Shown piece after piece: positions 30,961 to 37,441 of a DNA stretch of 39,614 bases; position 1 is the stretch's first letter, and each line of letters starts with the position of its first letter. Origin of the DNA: a virus; the IMG/VR virus record IMGVR_UViG_3300027893_000006, positions 1 through 39,614 of that record; one strand, 5' to 3'. The translations under genes and the position numbers were made by a program. The notes beneath the pieces were generated by a model. That model saw only the letters and a program-made list of their open reading frames with translations. It was not told where the DNA came from and searched no databases.

Positions 30961-30990
30961 ATTAATCCCATTCATTTATTTTTCAAAAAT

Positions 30991-31039
30991 AACGAACTGG
31001 TGGGATTGATTTCTCCATATTAAATACCCACCAGTCGTT
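30991..31039 (-). terminator. Hairpin with T-rich tail, likely terminator
   Basis: AACGAACTGGTGGG (30991-31004) pairs with CCCACCAGTCGTT (31027-31039), 13 bp with one bulged A. On the minus strand the stem is followed by TATTTTTG, the pattern of an intrinsic terminator. It lies between the gene at 31060-31326 and the thymidylate-synthase homologue, so it may end one transcript or attenuate entry to the modification locus. Confidence 0.55.
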
Positions 31040-31059
31040 TTGGAGAGAAAATGAAAATA

Positions 31060-31326
31060 TTAATTTAAATAAAAATGTTCTATAATTTTATTCATTTGTT
31101 CAATACTAATTGTAACTTCATAACCTTTATGATTTCGTCCCATCATATCTATACACATTGGTTTTTGAAATGGGTAATACTCAAAAAGATCTTCAGCATA
31201 ATATTCTATTGGACATCCAAAACAAATTATTAATTGTCCAGCTTTACTGTGTTCACCAGTAGTTATTCGAGTAGTTACAGTTTTTATAAATTCATTTCCT
31301 TCAGTATCTTTTGCTATTACTTGCAT
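31060..31326 (-). CDS. Hypothetical protein, 88 aa
   Basis: An 88-residue protein with a beta-rich start (MQVIAKDTEGNEFIKTVTTR, then ITTGEHSKAGQLIICFGCPI) and a helix at the end (SIEQMNKIIEHFYLN). It overlaps the upstream gene by 10 bases. Unrecognised. Confidence 0.6.
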   Translation of the reverse strand: MQVIAKDTEGNEFIKTVTTRITTGEHSKAGQLIICFGCPIEYYAEDLFEYYPFQKPMCIDMMGRNHKGYEVTISIEQMNKIIEHFYLN

Positions 31327-31944: not shown

Positions 31945-32304
31945 TTATTCAACTTTTATACCTTCAGCTTCTAATTCTTCTTGTAAAGAAGTTAATCGTT
32001 CACGTAAATTTTTTAATCGTTTTATTCGCTGGTCAATTTGTTTTACATCTTTTGTTTGTTTTTGTAATTCTTCAAGATGCTTATTTAATTCAATAAGTTT
32101 TTCTGGAGCTTCAATAAATTGTTTTAGAACTTCAGCTTTTTTAGCTTCAATCCCAGCTATATCTTCATCATAAGTTGCTATAATTTTATCAAAATGATTT
32201 AAGATAAAAATATAGTGCTTAATAAGTGCTTCATTAATTTTACGACCTTCAGCTAAAGAATTTAACTTATCTAATTTATTTTGTTTATAACTACATATTC
32301 TCAT
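31945..32304 (-). CDS. Coiled-coil protein C, 119 aa
   Basis: A helical protein, MRICSYKQNKLDKLNSLAEG at the start, with long coiled-coil segments and an end (RERLTSLQEELEAEGIKVE) closely like that of the next gene (REQLEALQKQLETEGVDISS). The two look like relatives sharing a C-terminal helix. I choose ATG 32304 because GGAG lies eight bases upstream; the ATG at 32310 is too close to it. It is read from directly after hammerhead 1. Confidence 0.68.
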   Translation of the reverse strand: MRICSYKQNKLDKLNSLAEGRKINEALIKHYIFILNHFDKIIATYDEDIAGIEAKKAEVLKQFIEAPEKLIELNKHLEELQKQTKDVKQIDQRIKRLKNLRERLTSLQEELEAEGIKVE

Positions 32305-32327
32305 TTTCATTTCTCCAATTTTTGGTT

Positions 32328-32386
32328 ATCTCATCAGTATAACAGAACCACCTGTTATAGACTGGCCGAAATCGGCCAGTTTCGAT
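32328..32386 (-). ncRNA. Type II hammerhead ribozyme 1
   Basis: Reading the minus strand: ATC, GAAA (32383-32380), stem III CTGGCCG/CGGCCAG with a tiny loop (32379-32362), TC (32361-32360), stem I TATAACAG/CTGTTATA with loop GTGGTT (32359-32338), CTGATGA (32337-32331), GAT. All core hammerhead nucleotides are in place with two perfect closed stems; stem II is the open one and only 3 bp (ATC/GAT). Predicted cleavage is after C at 32360. It starts two bases after the stop codon of the gene at 32389. Confidence 0.88.
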
Positions 32387-32388
32387 TT

Positions 32389-32862
32389 TTATATACTACT
32401 AATATCAACGCCTTCTGTTTCGAGTTGCTTTTGTAAAGCTTCAAGTTGCTCACGCATTCTTGCAACTTTTTGTACTTTACGACGTGTTTGCTCATCACCA
32501 AATTTTTCAATATGACTGGCTTTTGTTTCTTTTTCCTCAGCACTTTTAATGAGAATAGCTGCTTTGCAGCGAGCTACGAAAGCCTGATATCTCATATAAG
32601 TAGCAAGGCCAGCAAAATCGCTCTTTTTCAAAGGTAGATGCCTGCGAACATCATAGCCAGCATAAACCACCTTTTCACCATCTTTAATTGCAGATGGAAC
32701 AGCAATAAGTAATCCTTCACTATTTACGGCTGATACAATTTTACCCTCAGTATCACGATACTTTACATCCTTTATGACAAACGCCTTTCGTCCCTTCTTT
32801 TCCTTTTTGTTTTCCTTATTTTCATTTTCTTTACCAGGATTTACTTTGTTTACTTTCGCCAT
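32389..32862 (-). CDS. Coiled-coil protein B, 157 aa
   Basis: A basic protein: a Lys/Asn/Glu-rich start (MAKVNKVNPGKENENKENKK), a middle globular part (VKYRDTEGKIVSAVNSEGLL, then IAVPSAIKDGEKVVYAGYDV, and YMRYQAFVARCKAAIL) and a C-terminal coiled coil (REQLEALQKQLETEGVDISS). Its GGGAGG ribosome binding site is one of the strongest in the window. It has its own promoter and is followed at two bases by hammerhead 1. Likely highly expressed; function unknown. Confidence 0.75.
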   Translation of the reverse strand: MAKVNKVNPGKENENKENKKEKKGRKAFVIKDVKYRDTEGKIVSAVNSEGLLIAVPSAIKDGEKVVYAGYDVRRHLPLKKSDFAGLATYMRYQAFVARCKAAILIKSAEEKETKASHIEKFGDEQTRRKVQKVARMREQLEALQKQLETEGVDISSI

Positions 32863-32914
32863 TTTAGGCCTCCCAATTTTGAATAATATTTTTGTTTAAC
32901 AACCTACTATTTAA

Positions 32915-32942
32915 AGTATAATTCATTTTTTGAAAAAAGCAA
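32915..32942 (-). promoter_or_regulatory. Promoter of coiled-coil gene B
   Basis: TTGCTT (32942-32937), 16-base spacer, TATACT (32920-32915). Its surroundings match the promoter at 33475-33503, including ATTTGCTTTTT before and GTAGGTT after the -10. Confidence 0.65.
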
Positions 32943-32965
32943 ATTTATTTTAATTTATTTTGGTT

Positions 32966-33068
32966 ATCTCATCAGTATAACAGAACCACCTGTTATAGAC
33001 CTCGCTTACTTTAAGGAGTTTCGACCTTTTGACCTAAAGCCATTTCTTTTATTCAGCGAGGTTTCGAT
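32966..33068 (-). ncRNA. Type II hammerhead ribozyme 2
   Basis: Minus strand: ATC (33068-33066), GAAA (33065-33062), stem III CCTCGCT/AGCGAGG (33061-33055 with 33006-33000) enclosing a 48-base insert, TC (32999-32998), stem I TATAACAG/CTGTTATA with loop GTGGTT, CTGATGA (32975-32969), GAT. The core and stem I are identical to hammerhead 1 over 43 bases (32320-32362 and 32958-33000), but stem III differs in sequence while keeping pairing, which is covariation-like. It begins one base after the stop codon of the gene at 33070. Confidence 0.88.
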
Positions 33069-33069
33069 T

Positions 33070-33423
33070 TTAGCTTTCAAGTTCCTTTGTTAGCTTTGCT
33101 AATTGCTCACGTAAAGCAGCAACTTTCTTCTCGGCTTTTGCCTTTTTAGCTTTTTCACGTTCAGCTTTCTTTGCTTCACGTTCAGCTTTCGCCTTTTCTT
33201 TTGCAGCAGCTTTTACAGCAGCATTAGATGAATTTTCAACACGAGTTGCAAAACGATTGATACTGGCAACAATTTTATCTCTGCCAGCTTTTAAATTATC
33301 AGGAAGAGTTGTTATTCTTCCTAAATCACCAGCGATATTACGAATATCGCTTACTACAACAGGAACATCCTGAGTAGTTGGCTTTACAGCCGATTTTGTT
33401 TTATTACTTGTTTTTTTCGCCAT
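33070..33423 (-). CDS. Coiled-coil protein A, 117 aa
   Basis: A basic, Ala/Lys/Glu-rich protein: MAKKTSNKTKSAVKPTTQDV, then a globular part (IRNIAGDLGRITTLPDNLKA), then a long charged helix (AAAKEKAKAEREAKKAEREK) and AALREQLAKLTKELES. Its last helix resembles those of genes B and C. It has its own promoter, a GGAGG binding site and a hammerhead one base after its stop. The same GGAGGCCTAAAATGGC leader occurs before gene B. Confidence 0.75.
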   Translation of the reverse strand: MAKKTSNKTKSAVKPTTQDVPVVVSDIRNIAGDLGRITTLPDNLKAGRDKIVASINRFATRVENSSNAAVKAAAKEKAKAEREAKKAEREKAKKAKAEKKVAALREQLAKLTKELES

Positions 33424-33575: not shown

Positions 33576-35597
33576 TTAACGTATTTTACCAGCTATAAAT
33601 TTTCCATCTGGTGCAGTAATAATTTCTTTACCAGCAGCTTCACTCCAATTATTAGGACTCAAACCTAAACCGAATAAAATAGGCACTCTAAATTTTATTG
33701 TTGTATTTTCTAAAGTATCAAGAATATATTTATGTAAATTAGGATCATATAAATTTTCAAGAGGAACGCCATTTAATAATTCATCATGAACATTAGCTCG
33801 CAATTTAATTCCCCATTTTCGAGAATCGGAATTATAACGAGGTGAAATAGCAACCATTCGTTCTTTTATAATATAAGCAGCACAACTTTGAATTAAACTA
33901 TTGAATGCTTTATAGGATGCTTTTCCTGGAAGATATCTACGAAAACCATAAGCATTAAAAATAAATCCACGTAGTTTAGCAACTTCAATTGTTCGCCTTG
34001 AAGTTTCACGTATTTCAGGAAAAGTATAATGATATTTGTCATAAGATTTTTCTGCATGTTCTTTACAAAGTTCCTTAAATTTATTAAGTCGTAATTCAGA
34101 ATCCAATCTCCCATCTTCAATTAATTTATTTACTTTTTCCCCTATAATTTTTATAACATGTTTATCAGACATAAGCCTTCCAACAATAGTTTTTTTACCC
34201 ATTCCATAAGCCATACCAAAATTTTGATTTTTTGCATTGTCTCTTTCCATTAAAAGTAAATCTGCGACCCATTGATGATAATCTGTTGCTGGATCTTCGT
34301 TATATGCTTTTATAGCTTTTTTTATTTTGCAATAATGAACAATTAAACGATATTCAATTTGAGAAGCATCATTTGAAATGTAGCCCTCTCTTTCGTGTGG
34401 ATGAATAAGTTTTTTAGATCTACTATTTTGTTGTTGTGAATTTGGTTTGCTACAAGATAAACGACTTGTTCTAATTGCTTGATTATAATTTGGATGAACT
34501 ATCCCATTAACATTGAGTTTTAAAAAAGTATCAAGAAACAAACTTTTAAATTGTTGTTCTGTTCTATATTCAGTTATAAGATCAACCACTTGTTTTATTT
34601 TTTCATTACTTGTTACTAATGGATGAACTTTATATAAAGCCATTGCATCTTTATCAAAACTTGGTCGACCAGTATCTATCCATCTTCCATCTTTTTTCTC
34701 TTTTATTGTAAGTAAAATTGGTAGTTTAAATTGTTTTAATAAAATCTCTTGTAAACAATTATTTGAATTAGTAAATTCTTTTCGCTCAGTTAATCGCTCA
34801 ATCTTTTTAGCGTTTTCTATCATAATTTTTAATACTTGATAAGATTGTATTTTACATTCCATTTCATTTATTACTAATCCATCTTTCTCCATATCGAATA
34901 AAATAGGAGTTAATTTAATTTCAGTTTCAATTAGATCTTTTACTTTTTCTGATTGTTCATTAGTTGTTTCTTCTATTCGTCTTTGCATATTTTCTTGTAA
35001 AAATCTATACAATTTTCTATTCATTCTTACATCATCATTGGCATATTCTCCGAGTATTTTTATAGGAATATCAGCATAAGATTTTAATTTTGGTTTAAAA
35101 CTATTTAAATATTCTTGAACTCTATCTAAACTACCAGTATCATAATTTAACCAATCTTTACAAAGTGGCTTTAATCCATATTCTAAACGATCACTATAAT
35201 ATAATTTACTTAATGTTAATGTATCTACAAGACGGCATTTAAATTCTACTCCATCTCCAATATCAAACATCATTGCATCAAATTTTACAAGATGATTTAT
35301 CCAATCAGTACATGTGGATAAAATATCTTGTATCCAATTCATTACATTATCTATTAATAAATTATTAGAATCTATAGAGGTATGACGAATAGGGATATAC
35401 CAAATATCTGGAATTTCATCAGCAGTTATACTAAAACCACAAATTTTATCCCCTTTCCAAGGATATAATCCTCCTAATTCGTCATCATTAAAAACTCGTT
35501 TTGTTTCTACATCACAAAATATTTCTTTACGATTTTGTAAATTAGGGAGTTCTGATAATGATTCTATTATATGAAAATTATCACGGAGATTAATCAT
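33576..35597 (-). CDS. polA: Family A DNA polymerase with 3'-5' exonuclease
   Basis: A 673-residue replicative polymerase. Proofreading residues are D29-x-E31, N101...F106-D107 and Y185...D189. The polymerase has motif A D410 (DASQIEYRL), the O-helix R452, K456, F460, Y464 (RDNAKNQNFGMAYG) and motif C H604-D605-E606 (NVHDELL). F460 aligns with Phe762 of E. coli Pol I, which favours discrimination against dideoxynucleotides. There is no 5'-3' exonuclease domain; that activity is the separate gene at 22848. ATG at 35597. Length is typical for phage enzymes. Confidence 0.95.
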   Translation of the reverse strand: MINLRDNFHIIESLSELPNLQNRKEIFCDVETKRVFNDDELGGLYPWKGDKICGFSITADEIPDIWYIPIRHTSIDSNNLLIDNVMNWIQDILSTCTDWINHLVKFDAMMFDIGDGVEFKCRLVDTLTLSKLYYSDRLEYGLKPLCKDWLNYDTGSLDRVQEYLNSFKPKLKSYADIPIKILGEYANDDVRMNRKLYRFLQENMQRRIEETTNEQSEKVKDLIETEIKLTPILFDMEKDGLVINEMECKIQSYQVLKIMIENAKKIERLTERKEFTNSNNCLQEILLKQFKLPILLTIKEKKDGRWIDTGRPSFDKDAMALYKVHPLVTSNEKIKQVVDLITEYRTEQQFKSLFLDTFLKLNVNGIVHPNYNQAIRTSRLSCSKPNSQQQNSRSKKLIHPHEREGYISNDASQIEYRLIVHYCKIKKAIKAYNEDPATDYHQWVADLLLMERDNAKNQNFGMAYGMGKKTIVGRLMSDKHVIKIIGEKVNKLIEDGRLDSELRLNKFKELCKEHAEKSYDKYHYTFPEIRETSRRTIEVAKLRGFIFNAYGFRRYLPGKASYKAFNSLIQSCAAYIIKERMVAISPRYNSDSRKWGIKLRANVHDELLNGVPLENLYDPNLHKYILDTLENTTIKFRVPILFGLGLSPNNWSEAAGKEIITAPDGKFIAGKIR

Positions 35598-37262: not shown

Positions 37263-37293
37263 TTTATAATTCCTATAATAATAATAATAAAAA

Positions 37294-37441
37294 TGCTGAT
37301 AATAGGACTATCAACTATTTTCTGGTAGGATAGCTCACCATCATATTCCAAATTGCCAACTATTATCAGCACATAATTTAATTAATAAGCTGATGGACTT
37401 TCAACCCTAATTTATATTTTCCTGTTTTTCTTATCAATTAA
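37294..37441 (-). ncRNA. Two long stem-loops after the SSB-like gene
   Basis: On the minus strand TTAATTGATAAG (37441-37430) pairs with CTTATTAATTAA (37389-37378), 12 bp with one G-U, and TGCTGATAATAG (37371-37360) pairs perfectly with CTATTATCAGCA (37305-37294). CCATCA in the first loop (37396-37391) can pair with TGATGG in the second (37343-37338), a possible kissing contact. The first stem overlaps the stop codon of the upstream gene. It may be a terminator, a processing element or an unknown RNA. Confidence 0.5.

Follow-up and report, generated by a model that had tools for sequence, protein, structure and literature searches.

Here, we analysed a metagenomic phage contig of 39,614 nucleotides (IMG/VR record IMGVR_UViG_3300027893_000006; the whole stretch is called the window below) and found two complete type II hammerhead ribozymes on its minus strand, designated copies A and B. 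Both can be read directly from the DNA and begin 2 and 1 nt behind the stop codon of their upstream gene, as the original prediction for this DNA had claimed. That they are functional type II hammerheads, as likewise predicted, is well supported by the Rfam score, by covariation and by conservation at orthologous sites. We consider it probable from the sequence comparisons that both act in cis and cut polycistronic minus-strand phage mRNA between its genes. The interpretation given in the original prediction was partly supported overall, and its weaker points are addressed below.

Copy A (32320-32388, minus strand, from the spacer and the 5' arm of stem II to the pseudoknot tail) is separated by a 2-nt spacer from the TAA codon (32391-32389) of a gene encoding 157 amino acids. 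It is composed of the 5' arm of stem II (ATC, 32386-32384), GAAA (32383-32380), stem III (CTGGCCG/CGGCCAG), C17 at 32360, stem I (TATAACAG/CTGTTATA), CTGATGA (32337-32331) and GAT (32330-32328), with the cut expected at 32360/32359. Copy B (32962-33069, minus strand) follows the TAA codon (33072-33070) of a 117-aa gene after a 1-nt spacer and continues with ATC (33068-33066) and GAAA (33065-33062). The two arms of its stem III, CCTCGCT (33061-33055) and AGCGAGG (33006-33000), pair although 48 inserted nucleotides lie between them; C17 is located at 32998 and the cut is expected at 32998/32997. Stem I, core and tail are identical in the two copies over 43 bases, while stem III is wholly different in sequence yet paired in each; these features, the coordinates and the stop distances had all been described correctly before. 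Both copies carry the catalytic core CUGANGA and GAAA with the A15.1-U16.1 pair, have GUC as NUH cleavage triplet (GUA in the orthologues of a related phage, G027) and show the type II topology, in which stems I and III are closed by loops and stem II is open. Stem III and stem I form strong hairpins.

A further element, overlooked in the original prediction, is a pseudoknot between GGUU of loop I and AACC directly 3' of stem II, which is present in both copies (copy A: GGTT 32349-32346 with AACC 32327-32324, spanning 32324-32349; copy B: GGTT 32987-32984 with AACC 32965-32962; both minus strand). This bears on the 3-bp stem II, which had been regarded as a weak point. Stems II as short as 2 bp are common among natural hammerheads, and most type II representatives can form the loop I/tail pseudoknot (PMC3088659). 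A 3-bp stem II is therefore normal for this class, and the pseudoknot compensates for its shortness.

Employing a structural descriptor that includes all three stems, we obtained two full matches in the real window and none in 100 dinucleotide shuffles. When a short stretch was scanned, copy A (here 32320-32387) reached 47.9 bits against the Rfam model Hammerhead_II (RF02276; cut-off 37). The default Rfam scan of the whole window returned only a tRNA, copy A having been lost in the speed filters. Copy B gave no RF02276 match even at E 10, because its 48-nt stem III insert is absent from the model. The covariance-model check proposed along with the original prediction was hence positive for copy A. 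A local model, R2, was built from 20 diverse phage hammerheads including copy A; it scored copy B with 55.5 bits (E 5e-14), fitting it via an inner GAAA. Since whole-window Rfam scans miss copy A, type II hammerheads are probably under-annotated; such scans can overlook good type II hammerheads as well as those with stem III inserts.

Covariation was analysed across the 20 diverse phage type II hammerheads, in which 90.1% of cells were paired and two-sided changes occurred in 92 cells compared to 28 in shuffles. The paired fraction was 100% for stem III, 95% for stem I, 91% for stem II and 71% for the pseudoknot, and two-sided changes were present in all four helices, the pseudoknot included. 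In an independent test on 64 distinct hammerheads, the mean helix between loop I and tail was 3.26 with swapped tails and 4.22 with the own tail, the latter value exceeding the best of 1000 shuffles. Another metagenomic phage (L075, 4800-14300) carries 13 or more type II hammerheads within 10 kb; there, stem III is nearly constant and stem I and the pseudoknot covary, which is the reverse of the situation in the window.

Copy B offers a choice between two GAAA elements, the second of which lies in GGTCGAAACTCC (33026-33015) within the stem III insert (33007-33054, minus strand). The covariance model prefers this inner GAAA because the inner reading need not span the insert; stem III built from it is broken, whereas the outer GAAA gives a stem III of 8 bp. 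The orthologue of copy B in G027 likewise has an 8-bp outer stem III, with a different sequence and a 57-nt insert, and the inner element of that insert, GGTTGAAAGTCC, similar to the one in copy B, cannot pair in the role of the inner GAAA. As the outer stem is thus kept and the inner pairing is broken or impossible, we favour the outer GAAA as the one probably used by copy B. Behind the same gene as copy B, another relative (G030) carries GGTTGAAAGCCC. The short element GGTYGAAARYCC recurs at 33015-33026 and 37395-37406 of the window (both minus strand), at L106 11592 and at L105 19525; its sites are the stem III insert of copy B, the orthologue of this insert, the position behind the same gene in G030 and the window gap 37263-37437, which holds GGTTGAAAGTCC and showed no Rfam identity.

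The long open reading frames of the window lie nearly all on the minus strand, which places the ribozymes in sense orientation within a co-directional gene run. Upstream in the same run, a family A DNA polymerase is encoded (33576-35597, minus; Pfam PF00476, E 2e-40; phrog_17), and the phage contig also encodes a primase, a terminase, nucleotide-metabolism genes and one tRNA-Leu. Copy B follows the lysine-rich 117-aa gene (33070-33423, minus), for which no PHROG, only sub-cut-off Pfam matches and no confident family were obtained. Between the ribozymes lies the 157-aa gene (32389-32862, minus; orthologues 53-85% identical), and copy A is followed by a gene for a coiled-coil-like protein of 121 amino acids (31945-32310, minus; orthologues 46-74% identical) with the ribosome-binding site TTGGAG at 32318-32313; neither was assigned to a family. 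A strong hairpin, AACGACTGGTGGG...CCCACCAGTTCGTT, was also observed at 30976-31059 (minus) behind the stop of the gene bounded at 31060, followed by a T-rich stretch; it may be a terminator or one more of the hairpins at gene ends.

Scanning IMG/VR with a pattern yielded 26 contigs, 23 of which passed RF02276, with up to 14 copies per phage. One hammerhead-bearing contig resembles Streptomyces phages; for G021 no relatives were found among named phages, and the DNA of the region had no similarity to INPHARED phages. Copy A has orthologues in two related phages. In G023, the flanking proteins are 85% and 73% identical; in G027, they are 60% and 45% identical, and stem III has been fully replaced and is still paired. 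The orthologue of copy B in G027 is retained behind an upstream gene whose product is 53% identical to the 117-aa protein, and the downstream gene differs. Both ribozymes hence occupy the same gene ends in G027 despite flanking protein identities of only about 45-60%. Between the two hammerhead-bearing genes of G027, a 175-aa gene with near-perfect short repeats of the GDAKISG type has been inserted (L030, 6499-7026). Within the window, and likewise within G027, stem I, the tail and the cut triplet are the same in both copies and stem III is not, which suggests that the 3' half has undergone concerted evolution. Hammerheads of different phages were also compared in pairs that share a flanking gene: 23 pairs had both neighbours in common, 21 the downstream neighbour alone and 20 the upstream neighbour alone; the element thus belongs to the gene boundary and not to one gene. 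Nearly all copies lie in sense orientation between co-oriented genes, the arrangement also found for the two hammerheads of the window.

The original prediction had considered the link to the stop codon special, which no longer holds, as it recurs in many unrelated phages, though no paper stating it was found in the literature searched. For 62 copies, the distance from the stop to GAAA had a median of 5 nt; it peaked sharply at 3 nt (19 copies) and was at most 10 nt in 41. After stricter removal of redundancy, 59 copies were left, for which the median was 6 nt; 26 of them lay within 5 nt, compared to 13.1 expected from random placement of each ribozyme within its own gap (largest of 20000 trials: 25); the upstream genes in both sets were mechanical ORF calls, so that single distances can be wrong. 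With the annotated genes of Streptomyces phages, the median from the stop to the 5' end of the model was 15 nt, and 11 of 28 distances were at most 4 nt. About one third to one half of the copies lie more than 10 nt from the called or annotated stop. Going by these gene positions, we regard the link as real and widespread across many unrelated phages, not as universal. At its other end, the ribozyme in many cases also comes near the ribosome-binding site of the next gene.

Three cultured Streptomyces phages, Jevington, Spernnie and Amethyst, gave 14, 9 and 8 type II hammerhead matches. In their early hammerhead-bearing arms (Jevington, L097 1105-10700; Spernnie, L096 5100-10370; Amethyst, L098 1400-6620), 29 gaps between genes measure at least 60 nt, and a hammerhead occupies 26 of them. 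Three annotated genes of these phages overlap a hammerhead; their starts have thus probably been called too early.

At some gene ends, a different hairpin takes the place of the ribozyme. In G031 and G033, the junction orthologous to that between the 157-aa and 121-aa genes of the window lacks the ribozyme and carries, right behind the stop, a structure which we named motif X. It consists of an outer stem (in most cases CAA/UUG) and an inner stem, separated by a conserved 2x2 loop, UA/AC. G023 harbours three copies of motif X at other gene ends of the same cluster, beside one hammerhead. Seven pairs covary across six copies, and with a model of the motif, additional copies were detected in G031, G033 and G039, whereas the window and the other hammerhead phages searched gave none; against Rfam, only sub-cut-off matches were obtained. 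The copies are located at L029 8475-8541, 9674-9740 and 10139-10196, L034 9401-9459, L036 11457-11516, L115 429-491 and 1615-1671 (minus) and L103 3039-3098, and most of them overlap or follow the stop codon by -5 to +13 nt. Motif X is a long hairpin with an internal loop between genes, which is a feature of RNase III sites, and its structure suggests that it may be such a site; an undescribed self-cleaving ribozyme would be the less likely identity. Searching for new ribozymes where known ones are located follows an established logic (PMC10085705).

What would cutting between genes mean for the message? We propose that each ribozyme folds once its approximately 65-110 nt have been transcribed; the hairpins of stem III and stem I would form and the GGUU/AACC pseudoknot of loop I would keep stems I and II parallel, upon which the strand would break 3' of C17, co-transcriptionally. 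Judged from the position of the sites, cleavage just behind the coding region, as put forward in the original prediction, is a sound inference. The upstream message would end about 30 nt (copy A) or 75 nt (copy B) past the stop with the stem III hairpin and a 2',3'-cyclic phosphate, and the downstream message would start with a 5'-OH, followed by the stem I hairpin and then the next gene. Most likely, this would serve to divide a long transcript into mRNAs of about the size of a gene, whose ends are protected and whose lifetimes are independent of each other. Cleavage in the cell, protection of the ends and a benefit to the phage are what we infer here; 5'-OH ends could also speed up decay, so that expression might be raised or lowered.

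Other explanations of the same observations have to be weighed. The RNA motifs could mark conserved junctions of exchangeable gene cassettes, serving as recombination sites between small genes, with cleavage mattering little. Such a role would agree with the way hammerheads follow the boundary (23 pairs sharing both neighbours, 21 the downstream and 20 the upstream one) and with the stem I and tail shared by the copies within one genome, in the window as in G027. Recombination, however, needs neither the catalytic core nor compensatory pairing in the three stems and the pseudoknot, and yet all of these have been preserved. Moreover, copies diverge so strongly in stem III, and in many cases in stem I, that the stretches of homology are short. 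We regard this explanation as unlikely. It is very improbable that the elements are hammerhead-derived hairpins which no longer cut and serve only as 3'-end or terminator hairpins: both copies and their orthologues have retained all core nucleotides, the NUH site and the pseudoknot, against which stand the strength of the stem III and stem I hairpins and the core-less hairpin found at the same gene end in relatives. A terminator reading of copy A was rejected, as the sole terminator-like match is on the plus strand, opposite to the genes.

An effect on translation was considered as well. The ribozyme might be unfolded or blocked by a ribosome that terminates at the stop, or by a 30S subunit that has bound at the following start, so that cutting would report on translation; alternatively, cutting might expose a sequestered ribosome-binding site. 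With the stop 3-5 nt from GAAA and the next start often 20-30 nt from the core, both ribosomes would come to lie on the ribozyme. In G027, pairing is possible between the flank that immediately precedes each hammerhead and the ribosome-binding site that follows it (L030 7551-7690 and 5380-5520; CACAC(T)CCCCT/AGGGGTGTG and ATCCC/GGGAT), so that cutting could free that site. Across 55 hammerheads, however, this pairing amounted to 6.24 for the own and 6.17 for swapped partners, and the window shows none; sequestration by the upstream flank is thus not supported as a general rule, and a translational regulator appears doubtful to us as the main function. Cis-acting cleavage between genes remains our preferred reading.

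Type II hammerheads, their loop I/tail pseudoknot and gene-flanking clusters were described in 2011, including several hammerheads flanking single genes in prophages (Perreault et al., PMC3088659), and the paired arrangement is thus not special in the way that had been presumed. The members of RF02276 from that study resemble those of the window in core, GUC site, open stem II, closed stems I and III, pseudoknot, phage location and the flanking of a gene by two copies. They differ in that copy B has the 48-nt stem III insert missed by the Rfam model, and abutment to stop codons is not mentioned there. In the tandems of Clostridium scindens, Azorhizobium caulinodans and Agrobacterium tumefaciens, hammerheads likewise flank single genes in a polycistronic phage-type transcript. 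Tandem phage hammerheads cleaved native transcripts of about 2 kb in vitro, the A. tumefaciens set also in E. coli (PMC3088659). The genes differ from those of the window, where cutting is predicted, and here orthologous gene ends and hairpin replacement can be traced. With regard to the proposed function, the closest comparison is phage T7, in which RNase III cuts an early transcript of about 7,000 nt at five intercistronic sites into mono- and dicistronic mRNAs (PMC4858673); there, a host protein cuts hairpins and no self-cleavage is involved, and motif X looks closer to this type. Our best reading, by analogy, is that the hammerheads may be the protein-free counterpart of the T7 sites.

The window adds two further hammerheads, one with an unusual stem III insert. 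Our search of the literature, which was partial and leaves an earlier mention possible, returned only chance mentions of ribozymes in Streptomyces phages and nothing relevant on hammerheads and stop codons in phages; as far as this literature shows, three observations are new, namely the quantified stop link, the gap filling in Streptomyces phages and the substitution of motif X for the ribozyme. A wider view, which we regard as possible rather than probable, is that unrelated phage lineages segment their operons with interchangeable modules for RNA cleavage that abut the stop. In most cases, these would be type II hammerheads, of which a phage can carry up to 14; in relatives, the module at the corresponding gene end would be motif X, which would then perhaps be a new self-cleaving ribozyme rather than an RNase III site. 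The role of hammerheads in phages has been an open question since 2011. Our results provide testable rules for it: the ribozyme directly follows a stop codon, each longer gap has one cutter, and another hairpin can replace the ribozyme at the same end. These rules can be tested in Jevington, Spernnie and Amethyst, the cultured Streptomyces phages in which a single gene arm holds 8-14 copies.
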